From Corallococcus carmarthensis (lineage in GTDB: Bacteria; Myxococcota; Myxococcia; Myxococcales; Myxococcaceae): DNA of 34,333 nucleotides. This document shows, in pieces, positions 18,045 through 26,025 of this stretch. The stretch covers positions 1 to 34,333 of the forward strand of contig NZ_RAWE01000096.1 of assembly GCF_003611695.1 (NCBI RefSeq). The letters run 5' to 3'. The notes beneath the pieces were generated by a model, which did not search any database, was not told where the DNA came from, and worked only from the letters and a program-made list of their open reading frames with translations. Numbering within the stretch: position 1 is the first letter of the stretch; each line of letters begins with the position of its first letter. Both the position numbers and the translations under genes were made by a program.

Positions 18045-19973
18045 ATGATCATCGGGACGGCGGGGCACATCGACCACGGCAAGACGTCCCTCGTGAAGGC
18101 GCTGACGGGCACGGACACCGACCGGCTCCCGGAGGAGAAGCGGCGCGGCATCACCCTGGAGCTGGGCTTCGCCCACCTGCCCCTGGCGGATGGCCAGGTG
18201 GCGGGCGTGGTGGACGTGCCCGGCCACGAACGCTTCGTGAAGGCCATGGCCGCGGGCGCGGGCGGCGTGGACCTGGCGGTGCTGGTGGTGGCCGCCGATG
18301 AAGGCGTCATGCCCCAGACGCGCGAGCACCTGGACATCTGCCGCCTGCTCGGCGTGAAGGCGGGCGTCATCGCGCTCACCAAGGCGGACCTGCTGGACAC
18401 CCTGGGTGACGACTGGCGCGCGCTGGTGGAGGCGGACCTCGCGGCGCTCACCGCTGGCACCTTCCTGGAAGACGCGCCCGTGGTGGCGGTGTCGTCGCGC
18501 ACGGGCGCGGGGCTGCCGGAGCTGAAGGCGGCGCTCGGCCGCGCGGGCGCGGCGCTGCCACGGCGGCCCTCCGAAGGCCCCGTGTTCCTCCCCGTGGACC
18601 GGGCCTTCACCATCAAGGGCTTCGGCACGGTGGTGACGGGCACGCTCCTGTCCGGCGCGCTGGCGGTGGACGACGCGGTGTCGCTGCTTCCCTCGGTGAC
18701 CGGCGCGCGTCCGGGCCCGTTTCGCGTCCGGGGCGTGCAGGTGCACGGGCAGCCGGTGGCGCGCGTGGAGGCGGGGCAGCGCGCGGCGGTGAACGTGACG
18801 GACGTGCAGACGGAGGACGTGCACCGGGGCATGGTGCTCACGCGCGCGGGCGAGCTGCCGGAGACGTCCATGCTGGACGTGGAGCTGACGCTGCTGCCCG
18901 CCGCGGAATCTCCGCTGCCCAAGCGCCGCAAGCTGCTCCTGCACCTGGGCACCGCGCAGGTGGAGGCCACGGTGGCGCTGCTGGACCTGGACTCGCTCGC
19001 GCCGGGGGAGACGGGGCTCGCGCAGCTGCGGCTGGAGTCGCCGGTGGGGGCGCTCGTCGGACAGCGCTTCATCCTGCGAGGCTCGCGCGCGCTGCCGGGA
19101 CGGGGCGCCACGGTGGCCGGGGGGCGCGTGCTCTCCATCACGCCGCCGCGCCGGCGCCGGGGCGCGTCCTCGGTGGTGCGGCCGCTCTTGGAGGCGGACG
19201 CGGCGGGGCAGGTGGCGTGGCTCCTCCGGCAGGCGGGCTACGCGGGGCTCACGCAGACGGAGCTGTTCGGCCGCTCGGGGCTGTCGCCCAAGGTGCTCGC
19301 GCGCACGCTGGAGCTTCTGGGCGCGAAGGGGCAGGTGTTGCTGGTGGACCGCGACAAGCGGCTCTATGTGTCGCAGGACGTGTTCGAGGGCCTGCGCCAG
19401 CGCTCGCTCGCGCTGCTCGCCGCGTTCCACGAACGTGAGCCCATGCGCGAGGGCCTGTCACGCGAGGAGCTCCGTCAGCGGCTCTCCTCTCAACTGGACG
19501 CTCGCCTGTTCCAGCGGGTGGTGCAGGCGCTGGTCGACTCCGGCAGCGTGGAGGCGGAGAAGGACCTGGTGCGCCTTCAGGGCCGGGGTCGTACGCTCAC
19601 GCTGGGCGACGAGGCCGCGCGCACGCGCCTGTCCGCGGAGCTGTCCGCGGCGGGGCTCGCGCCGCCCACCGTCACGGAGCTGGCGCAGAAGCTGCGGCTT
19701 GGGCCCGTGAAGCTGCAGGAGCTGTTGAAGGTGCTGGTGGCGGCGGGCACGGGCGTGCGGGTGAGCGAGGAGCTGTGCTTCGACGCGAGCGCGCTGGAGG
19801 ACCTGCGGGGACGGCTGGTGACGTTCCTGAAGGACCAGAAGGAGATCACCACGCAGGGCTTCAAGGAACTGGTGGGCCAGAGCCGCAAGTTCACCATCCC
19901 CCTGTCGGAGTACTTCGACCGGGAGAAGGTCACGTTGAGGGTGGGGGACAAACGGGTGCTGCGTCGCGGATGA
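18045..19973 (+). CDS. selB: Selenocysteine-specific elongation factor SelB
   Basis: This 642-residue GTPase delivers selenocysteinyl-tRNA to ribosomes at UGA codons marked by a SECIS hairpin. GTPase motifs: G1 GHIDHGKT (7-14), G3 DVPGHE (57-62) and G4 TKAD (112-115). EF-Tu-like domains II/III follow (about 175-360), and then winged-helix repeats to the end ([57 protein letters not shown]) that bind SECIS RNA. The length fits bacterial SelB. Its presence implies that the organism makes selenoproteins; selA, selC and selD are not in this window. The stop overlaps the kinase start as ATGA (19970-19973), so the kinase is translationally coupled to SelB. Confidence 0.95.
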
Positions 19974-22480
19974 GTCCCAAGGTCTACAGTGAGCACGAGC
20001 TGTGCGCCCTGGTGGAGCCCTTCGCCCAGCCCATGCTGGTGCTGGCGGGAGAGGGGCGCGTCCGGGTGGCGAATGCCGCGTACGCGCGGCTGCTGGGGCT
20101 GCCCATGGAGCAGGTGGTGGGCCGCTCCTTCCTGGACTTCGTGCAGCCGGAGGAGCGCAGCCGGATGGGGGACCGCTTCCAGCGTTTGTCCACGGGCGCG
20201 CCGCTGGATGGACGCCCGCAGCTCTACCGGGTGGCCAGTGTCCACGGCACGGCGGACGAGGTCTTCGTGCAGGCCAGCACCCTGCGGCTGGAGGGCGGGG
20301 GCTTCGGCCTGCTGCTCAGCTGTATGGTGCTGGCGGACCGCCCCAGGGAGCTGATGGTGGCGGAGCGGCTGGTGGACACGTCCGCGGGGCTGGTGTCCGC
20401 GCGCTCGGAGGAGGGCGTGCGGCGCGTGGCGCTGGCGGGCCTGGAGGCCGCGGGCTTCCGGGCGCGCATCCTGCGCTGGGACGGCACGCGGCTGGTGGTG
20501 CGCGACGGCGTGTCCCTGCCGGCGGATTCGCACCTGGCGCTGGAGGCGCTGTCGGACGGGCGGCCGGTGTTCGGCGGCGCGGATCAGGCGCAGCCCACGC
20601 ACGCGTACCTGCCGGTGGGCGGGCCTCAGTCGGAAGTGCTGTGGGTGGCCGGCCCTTGGGTGGCGCCCCGGCACGGCTCGGTGCTGACGCTGTTCGCGAA
20701 GGTGGTGGGCGCGGCGCTCGCGGACGCCCACCTCCAGGCGGACGGCGCTCGCAGCCGCTGGGAGGTGGAGTCGGTGGCGGAGATGGCGCGCTTCGTGGCG
20801 CAGCCCGTGCCCCCTCCGCCCGAGACCTTCCTGGCGCGCGTGGCGGAGTTGCTCCAGGCCCGCGCGGTGGCGCTGCACGTCACCTCCGAACCCGGCCAGG
20901 CTCCCCGGCTCTCCGCCCACGTGGGGCTGGAGGAGGGGAGTGACTCGGACGCGGTCCCTGCCACCGGCGTGCTGCTGGCCTCGTCGCTGCGGGAGGACGG
21001 GGGCGTGCTGTCGTCGGAGGCGCAGGGGCGCGCGCTGGAGACGCTGTCCCAGGGCCGCTTCGGCAGCGGGACGGCGGCGCGGCTCACCCGGGGCGGTGAG
21101 AGCGTGGGCGTGGTGCAGGCGCTGCGCGCGAAGGAGCGCCCCTTCGACGAGCGCGACGCGCGGCTCTTGTCCACGCTCGCGGAGCTGCTGGTGACGCTCC
21201 TGGAACAGCGCCGCCTCCGGGCGGAGTCCGCGCGCCAGCTCACGGAGACGCGCCTGTTGCTGGACCTGTCGCGCACCACGTCGGGCGTGCTGGAGACGGC
21301 GAGCATCCTGGACGTCGCGTCCGACTTCCTGGTGCACCTGTTGGACGTGTCCAACTGCTTCATCCTGCTCTACGACGAACAGGCCAAGGTGCTGCGCGGC
21401 GCGGCGGCATCGGCGGCCCACCGCGACCTGTTCCGCACGGTGGTCGTGCCGCTCGACAGCGAGGACCTGGCCGCGCGCGTGGCCCTGGGGCGCAAGCCCA
21501 TCGCTGTCGAAGACCTGACGTCGGCGAACATCTCCGTCAGCGCCGTGCTCATCGACCGGCTGGGCGAGAAGGCCCTGCTGGGCCTGCCCCTCACCTCGCG
21601 CGAGGAGCTCATCGGCGTGGTGCTGGTGGACGACGTGCGCGGCCCGCGCCCCTTCGGCCCGGAGCTCATCGAGCTGGCGGAGGCGACGTGCGGCCAGCTG
21701 GCGCTGTCCATCGCCAACGCGCGCCTCTACGAATCCCTGTGGGCCAGCTACGCGGAGCTGGCCGCCACCCGCGCGGAGATGGTGAAGCGTGAACGCTTCG
21801 CCGCGCTGGGCGAGCTGTCCGCCATCGTCGCCCACGAGGTGCGCAACCCCCTGGGCGTCATCTTCAACGCGGTGGCCACGCTCCGGCGCATCATGAGTCC
21901 CACGGGCGACACCGCGATGTTGCTGGACATCGTCGCGGAAGAAAGCGACCGCCTCAACCGGATGGTGGCCGACCTGCTGGACTTCACCCGCCCGCGCAAC
22001 CCGGTGCTCCAGCCGGAGGACCTGCTGCGCGTGCTCCAGGACGCCTTCGAAGCCGCGCGGGCGCAGGCCGCCACGGAGCGCCCGGTGCGCGTCCACGTGG
22101 AGGTGGAAAACGGCATCACCACGGTCCCCATGGACCGGCGGCAGATCCGCCAGGCCCTGTTCAACGTGGCCGTCAACGCCATCCAGTCCATGCCGCAGGG
22201 GGGCGAGGTCTGGGTGCATGCGCGCCGGGACACGCACGCCGGACGCGAACAGCTGCGCATCGACGTGATGGACCAGGGACCGGGCATCCCGGCCGAACTG
22301 CTCCACCGCGTCTTCGAACCCTTCTTCACCACCAAGGCCCAGGGCACCGGCCTGGGGCTGGCGGTGGTGAAGCGCATCCTGGAGGAGCACCGCGGCGAAA
22401 TCGCGGTGGAGAGCGCCCCCGGACGCGGAACCACCTTCACCTTCTGGCTGCCGCTCACGCAGCCCCAGTCCCTCTCATGA
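19970..22480 (+). CDS. pxrK: Cytoplasmic PAS/GAF sensor histidine kinase, PxrK-like
   Basis: This 836-residue histidine kinase has no membrane spans, so it senses an internal signal. A PAS domain (about 1-125, VANAAYARLLGLPMEQVVGRSFLDFV) is followed by two GAF-like domains (about 280-415 and 430-590). HisKA comes next with phospho-accepting His622 in VAHEVRNPLG. The HATPase is seen by N-box Asn736 (FNVAVNAIQSMPQGG), G1 DQGPGIP and G2 GTGLGL (792-797), as in NtrB-type kinases. It is coupled to selB by a 4-base overlap and to the NtrC-type regulator by another (22477-22480). In Myxococcus xanthus the kinase beside the activator and sRNA pxr is PxrK; the symbol is given by this position, so it is inference. 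The ATG overlapping the selB stop is the best start. Confidence 0.85.
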   Translation: MSPKVYSEHELCALVEPFAQPMLVLAGEGRVRVANAAYARLLGLPMEQVVGRSFLDFVQPEERSRMGDRFQRLSTGAPLDGRPQLYRVASVHGTADEVFVQASTLRLEGGGFGLLLSCMVLADRPRELMVAERLVDTSAGLVSARSEEGVRRVALAGLEAAGFRARILRWDGTRLVVRDGVSLPADSHLALEALSDGRPVFGGADQAQPTHAYLPVGGPQSEVLWVAGPWVAPRHGSVLTLFAKVVGAALADAHLQADGARSRWEVESVAEMARFVAQPVPPPPETFLARVAELLQARAVALHVTSEPGQAPRLSAHVGLEEGSDSDAVPATGVLLASSLREDGGVLSSEAQGRALETLSQGRFGSGTAARLTRGGESVGVVQALRAKERPFDERDARLLSTLAELLVTLLEQRRLRAESARQLTETRLLLDLSRTTSGVLETASILDVASDFLVHLLDVSNCFILLYDEQAKVLRGAAASAAHRDLFRTVVVPLDSEDLAARVALGRKPIAVEDLTSANISVSAVLIDRLGEKALLGLPLTSREELIGVVLVDDVRGPRPFGPELIELAEATCGQLALSIANARLYESLWASYAELAATRAEMVKRERFAALGELSAIVAHEVRNPLGVIFNAVATLRRIMSPTGDTAMLLDIVAEESDRLNRMVADLLDFTRPRNPVLQPEDLLRVLQDAFEAARAQAATERPVRVHVEVENGITTVPMDRRQIRQALFNVAVNAIQSMPQGGEVWVHARRDTHAGREQLRIDVMDQGPGIPAELLHRVFEPFFTTKAQGTGLGLAVVKRILEEHRGEIAVESAPGRGTTFTFWLPLTQPQSLS

Positions 22481-23928
22481 CCGACGCGACCACCCCGGTT
22501 CCCCGAGGACGCATCCTCGTGGTGGACGACCAATGCAACATGCGCGCCACCACCGCGCTGCTCCTGCGCGCGGAGGGCTATACCGTTTCCGAATCCGCGA
22601 CCGGCGAGGAGGCCCTGGGCGTGCTCGCGCAGGGGCGCGTGGACCTGCTCCTCACGGACCTGAAGATGGAGCCCATGGACGGGCTCACGCTGCTCAAGCG
22701 CGCGCTGGAGGTCGCCCCGCGCCTCCAGGTCATCATGATGACGGCCTTCGGCTCCATCGACAGCGCGGTGGAGGCCATGCGCCTGGGCGCGTACGACTAC
22801 GTCACCAAGCCCTTCAAGGAAGGCGAGCTGCGCTACCGCGTGGAGCGCGCCCTGGACCGGGCCAAGCTCCAGGCGGCGGTGGCCAACTTCGCCACGGAGT
22901 TCAACCAGCGCCATGGTCTGTCCGCGCTGGTGGGCCGCAGCCAGGCGATGCGGGACCTCACCACGCGCCTCTTGCGCGTCGCGCAGAGCGACGCCACCGT
23001 CCTCATCCAGGGCGAGAGCGGCACGGGCAAGGAGCTGGTGGCCCGCGCCCTCCACGCGCACAGCCGCCGCAGCGGCCAGCCCTTCGTGCCCGTCAACTGC
23101 GCGGCCATCAGCGAAACGCTGCTGGAGAGCGAGCTCTTCGGCCACGCCAAGGGTGCCTTCACCGGCGCGGTGAAGACGCGCCGCGGCCTCTTCGAGGAAG
23201 CGGACAACGGCACGCTCTTCATCGACGAGGTGACGGAGACGAGCCCCACCTTCCAGTCCAAGCTCCTGCGCACGCTCCAGGACGGCGAGGTGCGCCGCGT
23301 GGGCGAGTCCACCGCGCTGCGCGTGGACGTGCGCATCGCCGCGGCCACCAACCGCGACATCGAGCTGGAGGTGAAGGAGAAGCGCTTCCGCCAGGACCTC
23401 TACTACCGCCTCAACGTGGTGATGCTGCGCGTGCCCCCGCTGCGCGAGCGCCTGGAGGACGTGCCCGCCCTGGCGGAGCACTTCCTGGAGCGCGCCAATG
23501 CCCGCAGCCCCCGGCCCCGGCGCCTGTCCGCGCTCGCCGTGGAGCACCTGATGACGTACAGCTTCCCCGGCAACGTGCGCGAGCTGGAGAACCTGGTGGA
23601 GCAGGCCGCCGCGCTGGCGGAGGCGGACGAACTGCTCCCCGAGGACTTCCCGCTGCGCCCCCAGGGCCGCGTGCTCCCGGCCGCCACCACCCCTGAAGCC
23701 GCGGGCCTGCCACCCACGGACGCGGTCCGAGCCACGGGGACGGAAGCCACGGGCCCCACCCTGGCGTCGGTGGTGGAAGACGCGGAGCGCCGCGCTATCA
23801 TCCAGGCGCTGGAGCGCCACGGCGTGGACCTGGCCCGCGTGGCCGATGAGCTGGGCGTCTCCTCCACCACGCTGTGGCGGAAGATGAAGCGCCTGAACCT
23901 CCGGCCCCCCGCGGGCGCTCGCGAATAG
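22477..23928 (+). CDS. pxrR: NtrC-family sigma-54 response regulator, PxrR-like
   Basis: This 483-residue sigma-54 activator has a receiver domain (1-125; acidic pocket Asp17/Asp18, phosphorylated Asp61 in LLLTDLKM, YDYVTKPF). The AAA+ domain (about 150-390) has Walker A GESGTGKE (179-186) and the sigma-54-contacting GAFTGA (226-231). A C-terminal Fis-type helix-turn-helix (LARVADELGVSSTTLWRKMKRL) follows an Ala/Pro/Thr linker. It is the partner of the upstream kinase. The sRNA gene just downstream has a sigma-54 promoter and a distant palindrome, so this protein is its likely activator. The symbol PxrR is given by synteny with the Myxococcus xanthus pxr locus. The ATG overlaps the kinase stop. 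Confidence 0.88.
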   Translation: MTDATTPVPRGRILVVDDQCNMRATTALLLRAEGYTVSESATGEEALGVLAQGRVDLLLTDLKMEPMDGLTLLKRALEVAPRLQVIMMTAFGSIDSAVEAMRLGAYDYVTKPFKEGELRYRVERALDRAKLQAAVANFATEFNQRHGLSALVGRSQAMRDLTTRLLRVAQSDATVLIQGESGTGKELVARALHAHSRRSGQPFVPVNCAAISETLLESELFGHAKGAFTGAVKTRRGLFEEADNGTLFIDEVTETSPTFQSKLLRTLQDGEVRRVGESTALRVDVRIAAATNRDIELEVKEKRFRQDLYYRLNVVMLRVPPLRERLEDVPALAEHFLERANARSPRPRRLSALAVEHLMTYSFPGNVRELENLVEQAAALAEADELLPEDFPLRPQGRVLPAATTPEAAGLPPTDAVRATGTEATGPTLASVVEDAERRAIIQALERHGVDLARVADELGVSSTTLWRKMKRLNLRPPAGARE

Positions 23929-24035: not shown

Positions 24036-24054
24036 CTGAAACGCGATTTCAGGG
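24034..24054. promoter_or_regulatory. Candidate PxrR enhancer site (21-bp palindrome)
   Basis: CCCTGAAA (24034-24041) and TTTCAGGG (24047-24054) are perfect 8-base inverted arms around CGCGA. Its centre lies about 121 bases upstream of the predicted sRNA start, within the range used by NtrC-type activators. The arms CTGAAA/TTTCAG recur in the first stem of the sRNA (24186-24191, 24209-24214). Confidence 0.55.
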
Positions 24055-24109
24055 CTGCAATGGGGAAGGGTGGGGGTTGGAGTGTCGCCCTGTCGTCCAA
24101 GTGCTTGAG

Positions 24110-24138: not shown

Positions 24139-24154
24139 TGGCACGGCACCTGCT
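24139..24154 (+). promoter_or_regulatory. Sigma-54 promoter of the Pxr sRNA
   Basis: TGGCACG, four bases, then CTGCT matches the -24/-12 consensus TGGCACGN4TTGCW with one change (C for T). GG at 24140-24141 and GC at 24152-24153 have exactly the 10-base spacing required. The start site is predicted near 24165. It lies 211 bases after an NtrC-type activator gene. Confidence 0.85.
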
Positions 24155-24164
24155 AAAGGCTAGG

Positions 24165-24284
24165 TCGGGACGCATCGAAGCGAGGCTGAAAGTGGTTCCC
24201 CCCCACCCTTTCAGCACTTCCGGTGTGTCACCTTGAGAAGACCCGCGGCCCGACACCCTCACGGGTGCCGGGCCGCCTTCTTTT
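24165..24284 (+). ncRNA. pxr: Pxr-like developmental small RNA
   Basis: There is no ORF, yet a sigma-54 promoter and a strong terminator bound about 120 bases with three hairpins. SL1: GCTGAAAG (24185-24192) pairs with CTTTCAGC (24208-24215). Inside, GGT/ACC closes a loop holding exactly seven C residues (24198-24204). SL2: GGTG (24222-24225) pairs with CACC (24229-24232), extended by CTTC/GAAG. SL3 is the terminator. Pxr of Myxococcus xanthus represses fruiting-body development while nutrients last. It has a seven-cytosine run in a stem-loop, where a single base change abolished its function, and is preceded by PxrK/PxrR. These features all recur here, hence the call; the exact ends and shorter processed forms are inferred. 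Confidence 0.85.
24245..24284 (+). terminator. Rho-independent terminator of pxr (SL3)
   Basis: A 14-bp GC stem with one mismatch (24245-24258 with 24263-24276, loop TCAC) is followed by CTTCTTTT. This is the clearest intrinsic terminator on the plus strand in the window. From 24285 to 24405 I see no gene or signal. Confidence 0.9.
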
Positions 24285-24465: not shown

Positions 24466-26025
24466 CTACTGGCCGAACAGCGTGCCGGCCTGGGCCAGCC
24501 AGTCGGTGACGTGGCCGGGGAGGATGCCCAGCAGCACGACGGCGACGGTGGAGATGACCAGCGCGGCCTCGGTGCCCCAGTTGCGCTCCAGCGGCTGCGC
24601 GCCTTCGGGCACGGGGTGCATGAACATGTAGACCACGACGCGCAGGTAGTAATACGCGCCCGCCGCGCTGCTGAGCACCGCGACCACCGTGAGGCCCACG
24701 AGGCCCACGTCGATGGCGGCCTGGAAGATGAGCAGCTTGCTCATGAAGCCCACGGTGGGGGGGATGCCGCCCAGTGACAGCATGAAGGCCGCCATGGCGA
24801 ACGCGTAGCCCGGACGGCGCTGCGCGAGGCCCGCGAAGCGCTCCAGGTCCCAGGCGGTTCCCTTCTCTTCGTCCTCGCGGCGCTCCAGCGCGGACACCAT
24901 CGCGAAGGCGCCCGCCGCGCTGAAGGTGTACGCCAGCAGGTAGTACAGGATGCCGCGCAGCGCGTCCGAACGGGCCACGTCCAGCGGCGTGCCACCGGAC
25001 AGCGAGGACGCGGCCAGCAGGCGGAAGTGCTCGCCCGGGGCCGCGACGAACAGCGCCGCCACGCCCAGCAGCAGGTAGCCCGCGTGCGCGATGGAGGAGT
25101 ACGCCAGCATGCGCTTCACGTTGCGCTGCGGGATGGCCATCAGGTTGCCGGCCACCATCGTGAGCAGCGCCAGCGTGGCGAAGAGCATCAGCGGCAGCTT
25201 GGGGTCCATGCCCTTGCCCACCGTGACGAACACGCGCACCAGCGACGCGAACGCCGCCGCCTTCACGCCCGCGCTCATGAGGGCCGTCACCGGGGTGGGG
25301 GCGCCCTCGTACACGTCCGGCGTCCACATGTGGAACGGCACGGCCGCCACCTTGAACGCGAAGCCCGCGGCGATGAGCACCGCGCCCACGTAGACGAGCG
25401 CCGGGGACGTGGTCAGCGCCTGCTGCAGCGGCCCCGCGATGTCGTTGAGCTTCGTCGTGCCCGTGGCGCCGTACAGGAGCGCCGTGCCGTACAGCAGGAT
25501 GGCGGAGGAGAAGGCGCCCAGGATGAAGTACTTGAAGCCCGCCTCGCTGGGGCGCGTGCCGCGGCGCAGGTACGCCGTCAGCGCGTACGTCGCGATGGAG
25601 AGGACCTCGATGTTGACGAAGATGGTGATGAACTCCGACGACATCGCCAGCAGGCTCATGCCCGCGGAGGCGAAGAGCATCAGCGCGTAGAACTCACCGC
25701 GCTCCGCGCCACGCCGGCGCAGGAAGCCCACCGCGCTCAGCGCCGCCAGCGCCAGGCCCACGCTCACCACCAGGGTGAGGAAGCTGGAGAAGGGGTCCAG
25801 CACGCCGAAGCCGAGGAACACCTCCTGCGGCGGCTCGAACATCAGGCCCACGGCCACGGCGCCGCTGGCCGCCGCCGCCACGACGGTGAGCACCGCCTGG
25901 TAGCCGCGGGACGCCGTCGCGGAGAGGAACACCTCCGACAACAGCAGGACGGAGGCCGCCACCACCATGATGATGGCGGGCAGCATGGGGAGGAAATCCG
26001 CCAGGGTGAGATTTGGCAGGTTCAT
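24466..26025 (-). CDS. nuoN: NADH-quinone oxidoreductase subunit N
   Basis: This 519-residue polytopic antiporter-like subunit of complex I is one of three proton-pumping modules. It shows a conserved trans-membrane Glu140 in FVNIEVLSIATYAL and the lysine-bearing span GFAFKVAAVPFHMWTPDVYEG. Then come the AGNLMAIPQRNVKRMLAYSSIAHAGY helix and the LSLGGIPPTVGFMSKL segment. Length is slightly above E. coli NuoN (about 485). It is the last gene of the operon, starting 15 bases after nuoM. Confidence 0.96.
   Translation of the reverse strand: MNLPNLTLADFLPMLPAIIMVVAASVLLLSEVFLSATASRGYQAVLTVVAAAASGAVAVGLMFEPPQEVFLGFGVLDPFSSFLTLVVSVGLALAALSAVGFLRRRGAERGEFYALMLFASAGMSLLAMSSEFITIFVNIEVLSIATYALTAYLRRGTRPSEAGFKYFILGAFSSAILLYGTALLYGATGTTKLNDIAGPLQQALTTSPALVYVGAVLIAAGFAFKVAAVPFHMWTPDVYEGAPTPVTALMSAGVKAAAFASLVRVFVTVGKGMDPKLPLMLFATLALLTMVAGNLMAIPQRNVKRMLAYSSIAHAGYLLLGVAALFVAAPGEHFRLLAASSLSGGTPLDVARSDALRGILYYLLAYTFSAAGAFAMVSALERREDEEKGTAWDLERFAGLAQRRPGYAFAMAAFMLSLGGIPPTVGFMSKLLIFQAAIDVGLVGLTVVAVLSSAAGAYYYLRVVVYMFMHPVPEGAQPLERNWGTEAALVISTVAVVLLGILPGHVTDWLAQAGTLFGQ

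Follow-up and report, generated by a model that had tools for sequence, protein, structure and literature searches.

Pxr, a small RNA (sRNA) of Myxococcus xanthus, is a model for sRNA control of entry into multicellular development. The Qrr sRNAs of Vibrio have a sigma-54 promoter and an NtrC-type regulator, control group behaviour and use Hfq; by description only, Pxr is like them in being a sigma-54-driven sRNA under an NtrC-type regulator with a role in group behaviour. The two differ in that the Qrr sRNAs use Hfq, whereas we found no Hfq in any of the 20 genomes that we searched for it, in agreement with the Pxr papers. According to PMC10217877 and PMC5568312, processing of Pxr-L in M. xanthus probably gives Pxr-S, the form that prevents development for as long as nutrients are available, and the former paper attributes conversion of Pxr-XL to Pxr-L to RNase D. 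A C-to-A change in the loop of stem-loop SL1 destroys function (loop mutants described in PMC5684412 and PMC5568312), and SL3 is required for Pxr accumulation (PMC5684412). Sections of PMC11928866 and PMC10217877 give the direct targets, and the second ribonuclease that performs the step to the active short form, as not known; in the sections of PMC8844925 covered here we found no Pxr terms. Here we analyze a 34,333-nucleotide stretch of Corallococcus carmarthensis DNA (contig NZ_RAWE01000096.1; the window, hereafter) that carries this species' pxr gene, and present comparative evidence which suggests that the front end of its RNA, a part not included in the gene as described, folds into a conserved stem, P1, in place of the published hairpin SL2.

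Identity and promoter of the sRNA locus

RF01812 (Pxr) was the sole Rfam 15 family that matched the whole window at gathering scores. The match lies at 24178-24284 on the plus strand (as do all parts of the RNA described below), covers model positions 1-109 of 109, scores 113.8 bits (E 7.4e-20) where the cut-off is 80, and defines the annotated Pxr core; the source genome (10.8 Mb in 530 contigs) has this one RF01812 match over the cut-off and no other. Homology to Pxr follows from the covariance score together with synteny with PxrK, PxrR and nuoN and the placement of the genome in Corallococcus, a genus of the Cystobacterineae. We are highly confident in the overall explanation, namely that Corallococcus has here its one ortholog of pxr, controlled by PxrK/PxrR and encoding a two-domain RNA with P1. 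A first-pass annotation, made from the letters of the window alone, had called the RNA a homolog of a described one and not new, had placed the DNA in the Cystobacterineae, and had suggested a covariance-model search of the locus; that search recovered the full model, and the suborder is the right one. The RNA itself is indeed not new: it belongs to the known Pxr family, and a figure legend in PMC5684412 already includes a Corallococcus Pxr sequence in its alignment.

The RNA and its locus resemble those of M. xanthus in the full-model sequence, an SL1 with a C7 loop, an SL3 core with terminator, the sigma-54 promoter, PxrK/PxrR upstream and nuoN downstream. They differ in that nuoN follows pxr in the window with no intervening pxrA gene and in that the core is 107 rather than 108 nt; P1 is predicted for Myxococcus pxr too, and so is no difference between the two. 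That this might be a degenerate or non-functional copy seems exceedingly improbable, since 0 to 2 bases separate its core from those of 14 other Corallococcus copies, its promoter, C7 loop and terminator are all intact, and, pxr being single in the genome, there is no paralog able to compensate.

The first-pass annotation had also proposed a near-consensus sigma-54 promoter, and this is borne out by TGGCACGGCACCTGCT at 24139-24154 (plus strand), in which the -24 GG (24140-41) and the -12 GC (24152-53) are exactly 10 nt apart, and by the recurrence of the pattern GG[C/A]-N9-GC, which 123 of 125 pxr copies, drawn from 25 genera, carry in the 50 nt before the gene. In 98 of the 125 the pattern sits 24-25 nt before the annotated 5' end, and this fixed spacing is a stronger sign than the count of 123, whose chance rate lacks an estimate. 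Spacing to the -12 element (C at 24153) predicts a transcription start at 24163-24166, near 24165 as in the first-pass annotation, and a transcript of about 120 nt that would run to 24284; by the promoter-to-gene spacing, a leader of some 12 nt would be transcribed before the annotated gene begins. Farther upstream, the inverted repeat CTGAAA-N5-TTTCAG (24036-24052, plus strand) is a predicted PxrR enhancer site. It belongs to a recurrent motif, TGAA-N3-10-TTCA, which is present in 58 of 124 pxr upstream regions and 18 of the 25 genera (4.8 regions expected from dinucleotide shuffles), and which was not found upstream of pxr in g21, g23, g2, g8, g14, g15 and g25 (we code the genera by number; g1 is Corallococcus, g19 is Myxococcus including M. 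xanthus, and g3 is Archangium).

The leader and the predicted basal stem P1

The fold of 24165-24284 has an energy of -64.9 kcal/mol (z -6.6), and none of 200 shuffles was equally stable. Full-length RNA is predicted to have two domains, P1 plus SL1 and SL3, with the SL2 strand taken by P1. The leader sequence of pxr predicted to form the 5' side of P1 is GGGACACAUCG. In the fold of the window RNA GGGACGCAUCG (24167-24177), which is outside the Rfam match, pairs with CGGUGUGUC-A-CC (24221-24232) and encloses SL1. From the permutation test and pair counts below and from the folds, we place the 5' strand at 24167-24180, of which AAG (24178-24180) is the less sure part, and from the Rfam alignment and the fold we place the 3' strand at 24217-24232; 24222-24232 is Rfam's hairpin SL2. 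The structure used for counting pairs that AAG with CUU, which extends P1 to 14 pairs, but the minimum-energy fold pairs the same CUU with GAG (24182-24184), which makes the three innermost pairs less certain. SL1 (24185-24215, from the Rfam alignment and alignment A1 below) presents the loop UCCCCCCC at 24197-24204, the presumed target-pairing seed; its seven cytosines, as first annotated, are 24198-24204. This region reads GGUUCCCCCCCACC in the window RNA, and GGUU[C/U]CCCCCC is present in all 125 copies examined. SL3 (24236-24284, by Rfam match and fold) would serve as stabilizing hairpin and intrinsic terminator, and its GC-rich hairpin (24236-24281) and U tail agree with the strong terminator with T tail of the first-pass annotation. 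That annotation's RNA of about 120 nt with three hairpins holds for size, with a predicted end at 24284, and holds for hairpins in the 107-nt core, where SL2 can form, but not in the full-length RNA, which is predicted to spend the SL2 strand on P1.

P1 is supported by permutation and by covariation. We took leader and 3' strand at fixed offsets from the C-run, with one copy per genus, and compared duplex energies of native partners with those of permuted ones. Across 25 genera the native value was -16.2 against -12.1 (standard deviation 0.57) for permuted pairings, and across the 16 most divergent genera it was -16.8 against -12.4; in neither case were any of 10,000 permutations as good, and an earlier run with 24 genera had the same outcome. 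In controls with the 16 genera, leaders slid upstream by 23, 45 and 60 nt were equalled in 7,438, 868 and 176 of 10,000 permutations, and leaders set against the 22 nt after the terminator in 9,347. Covariation was examined in alignment A1, made with MAFFT and not fitted to P1; its nine genera have 70 distinct sequences, of which it includes 46. Here 88.9% of P1 cells are paired, compared with 21-49% for slid versions, and 41 cells carry double changes compared with 19.1 in shuffles (0 of 500 as many). Columns 9-72, for example, hold A-U in 27 sequences, G-C in 17 and G-U in 2, and at columns 10-71 there are 23 sequences with G-C, 21 with A-U and 1 with G-U; in two of the P1 pairs both bases have changed, in 17 and 21 of the 46 sequences. 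RNAalifold, given no hint, picked P1 over SL2, and leader and 3' strand share a pair at p>0.5 in 101 of 101 distinct full-length RNAs.

Of 144 matches listed we had used 125, leaving out the 14 weakest (E at least 2.3e-5) and five stronger ones (G063, G135, G046:C409, G121:C597 and G121:C903). Those five and the weak matches G086 and G092:C355 formed a held-out set; G086 is of genus g11, which, being left out of the 125, is outside the 25 genera. All seven fold with P1, and four of them, three with stems unlike that of the window, rank 0/50, 3/48, 1/48 and 0/48 against swapped partners.

Several results weigh against P1. The other three held-out copies have ordinary duplex ranks (8, 16 and 17 of 48), and one is nearly the window's sequence. 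The control slid by 60 nt was itself mildly better than chance, and leader shuffles within single genera reach p<0.05 in just 11 of 25. Counted by pairs, double changes occur in 4 of those in P1, which is not above the 3.6 of shuffles (272 of 500), and 36 of 46 sequences have no pair at A1 columns 12-69. Covariance models with P1 (R1) and with SL2 (R2), built from one alignment and run on loci with 31 divergent copies, came to a draw, with R1 above R2 in 18 of 31, below it in 13, and a mean of 67.8 bits for both; effective sequence numbers are unequal (1.02 and 1.28), so these bits are no clean contrast.

SL2, processing and proposed function

Might the published SL1-SL2-SL3 fold nonetheless be the working structure, with the leader an untranscribed or unstructured spacer? 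Rfam, and the published work covered here, draw three stem-loops on a 108-nt core; SL2 is predicted in g1, g7 and g19 once the leader is taken away (3.8-3.9 expected pairs within the strand), and R2 is level with R1 on divergent copies. However, the four-pair SL2 has 76.1% of its A1 cells paired with 2 double-change cells against 1.5 in shuffles, and 26 of 46 sequences lack its third pair. The local hairpin of the 3' strand is also weak in several genera, scarcely self-pairing without the leader in g6 (1.0 expected pairs), g13 (0.7), g17 (0.4) and g20 (0.8). In addition, the leader covaries with the 3' strand between genera, and the -12 element sets the predicted start ahead of the leader. We consider this fold quite improbable as the working structure.

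A second alternative is compatible with our overall explanation: both folds may be used, P1 in the full-length RNA and SL2 in an active short form, once removal of the P1 5' strand has freed the 3' strand. P1 would then be the switch of Pxr-L to Pxr-S processing, in that the leader locks the RNA and nutrient-dependent cleavage or removal of the P1 5' strand lets it refold and activates it; if this were true, the second ribonuclease would be an enzyme that acts on P1. In g1, g19 and g7 the predicted partner of this 3' strand changes, giving P1 at full length and SL2 without the leader, and M. xanthus has both Pxr-L and Pxr-S, of which Pxr-S is taken as active (PMC10217877 and PMC5568312). Against this, the one processing enzyme known, RNase D, acts on tRNA precursor 3' ends (PMC10217877), and SL2 is not conserved over the family, so that such a switch could hold for part of the family at most. 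We regard it as tentative and on the whole unlikely.

Returning to a two-domain RNA with P1, we infer its expression, function in this species and targets by homology with M. xanthus. Phosphorylated PxrR, fed by PxrK, would activate sigma-54 polymerase from upstream, probably bound at CTGAAA-N5-TTTCAG, and the RNA of about 120 nt would start near 24165 and end at the SL3 terminator. At full length it would fold into a long arm, with the leader closing P1 under SL1 and the C7 loop presented, plus the SL3 hairpin. The RNA would then be processed, and the short form would pair with G-rich targets through the C7 loop and restrain fruiting-body development while nutrients last. In such a scheme the most likely role of P1 is to hold the 5' end in a duplex, to stabilize the RNA and to set where processing can occur, and it offers a specific, mutable element with which to address processing. 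We did not find P1 in the text of the published Pxr literature covered here, a scope that excludes the figures, Yu et al. 2010 and Chen et al. 2014; literature searches brought up no additional work on the structure of Pxr. P1 is thus new as far as the literature searched, and not proven new. If a stem does reach beyond the gene as annotated, part of the RNA would have been missing from the published folds, energies and cross-species constructs. PMC5568312 describes foreign cores fused to the M. xanthus upstream region, leader included, and these constructs would thus have been P1 chimeras. With the Myxococcus leader (genome G103) on Archangium-type cores the predicted leader pairing falls in some and not in others (A. 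violaceum copy 1 goes from 10.2 to 8.0 expected pairs); the paralogs are not identifiable from the available text of that paper, so we do not offer P1 chimerism as the explanation for the failure of those constructs.

The candidate target pxrA is an unlikely target here: our query, the gene identified as pxrA by its place in Myxococcus genome G103 and assigned by Pfam to the GNAT acetyltransferases, matched none of 16 Corallococcus genomes at E<=1e-10. We also counted the loop complement TGGGGGGRAA and a reversed control pattern in three small g23 genomes, and found 14+17, 19+5 and 8+6 matches against 21+9, 5+7 and 11+10 (69 against 63 in total; G126 by itself gave 24 against 12). Among 68 such sites in the three genomes there were three cross-genome links, namely pxr and two coding-region pairs, and no conserved gene-start site; we propose no target from this search. 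One g23 coding region (L143:1034-1325) has three 141-nt repeats with TGGGGGGAAA in each. In the window the SL1 loop has a near-complement in the G-rich GGGGAAGGGTGGGGGTTGG at 24062-24080, which precedes the promoter; we rejected a sponge role for it, as the tight pattern is at this place in just 4 of 15 Corallococcus regions, the window included.

Distribution and gene neighborhood

Among the 145 genomes examined from the order, RF01812 matched 95 at E<=0.01; these were 95 of the 96 in the family, and none of the 49 outside it matched; a search of 195 genomes of the phylum with R1 likewise gave 95 matches, all in the family, and none among the 99 outside. Both searches were filtered, and some weak matches are lost. 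Sixty-one carriers exceed the Rfam cut-off, which thus misses 34 of the 95, some of these being weak or contig-edge matches (G049, G086). A second Pxr-like site (C519, 41.7 bits with R1) is a GC-rich terminator without a C-run loop, which we attribute to chance, and it was not among the Rfam search matches at E<=10 in the source genome. The tandem Pxr paralogs of Archangium (g3) and the related genus g6 belong to the same RNA family, with up to 5 copies where the window genome has one; arrays of 5 copies each are present in G047, G044, G074 and G075 (L059, L060, L064, L067).

A PxrR homolog adjoins pxr in 23 of 25 genera, counting g25 on a 56-residue end match only and g1, g7 and g19 on few inspected loci; g21 and g23 are the exceptions. 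The best PxrR matches in genomes of these two are 45-46% identical, compared with 68-75% for the adjoining PxrR of other divergent genera, and we therefore take the ortholog as absent from this set of five genomes, two of which are <90% complete. In the two g21 genomes (L093, L094) the sigma-54 pattern is absent and TTGTCA-N17-TATYTG, seen by eye, is in its place, which we take to resemble the sigma-70 consensus. Here too the start of the P1 leader would lie a few nt past the promoter. These genomes, with no adjoining PxrR, appear to have replaced the sigma-54 promoter at pxr with one of sigma-70-like type. In the g23 genomes (L081, L082, L086) a sigma-54-like pattern is kept, pxr is near nuoN, and no PxrR ortholog was found; g23, with genomes of 2.1-2.7 Mb, retains Pxr. 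Lineages with Pxr but without a detected PxrR ortholog may help to separate any older role from the developmental one.

In the window pxr lies, as first annotated, in a gene-free gap directly behind an NtrC-type regulator and a kinase, both recognized by their Pfam domains. PxrR (SpdR/Nla19; receiver, sigma-54 AAA+ and Fis-type helix-turn-helix) occupies 22477-23928 on the plus strand and nuoN 24466-26025 on the minus strand, and in the gap between them we saw no gene beyond long mechanical minus-strand open reading frames (ORFs) that cross known genes in other frames. The PxrK (SpdS) histidine kinase (PAS, GAF, HisKA and HATPase; Pfam on 19838-22477 and the ORF list) is on the plus strand at about 19970-22480, its start being placed by eye at MSPKV. 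Directly 5' of it is a gene for SelB, the selenocysteine elongation factor (18045-19973, by Pfam). In g4 (G050, G054) and g25 (G129), pxr and the adjoining PxrR match are on opposite strands (L087, L089, L079).
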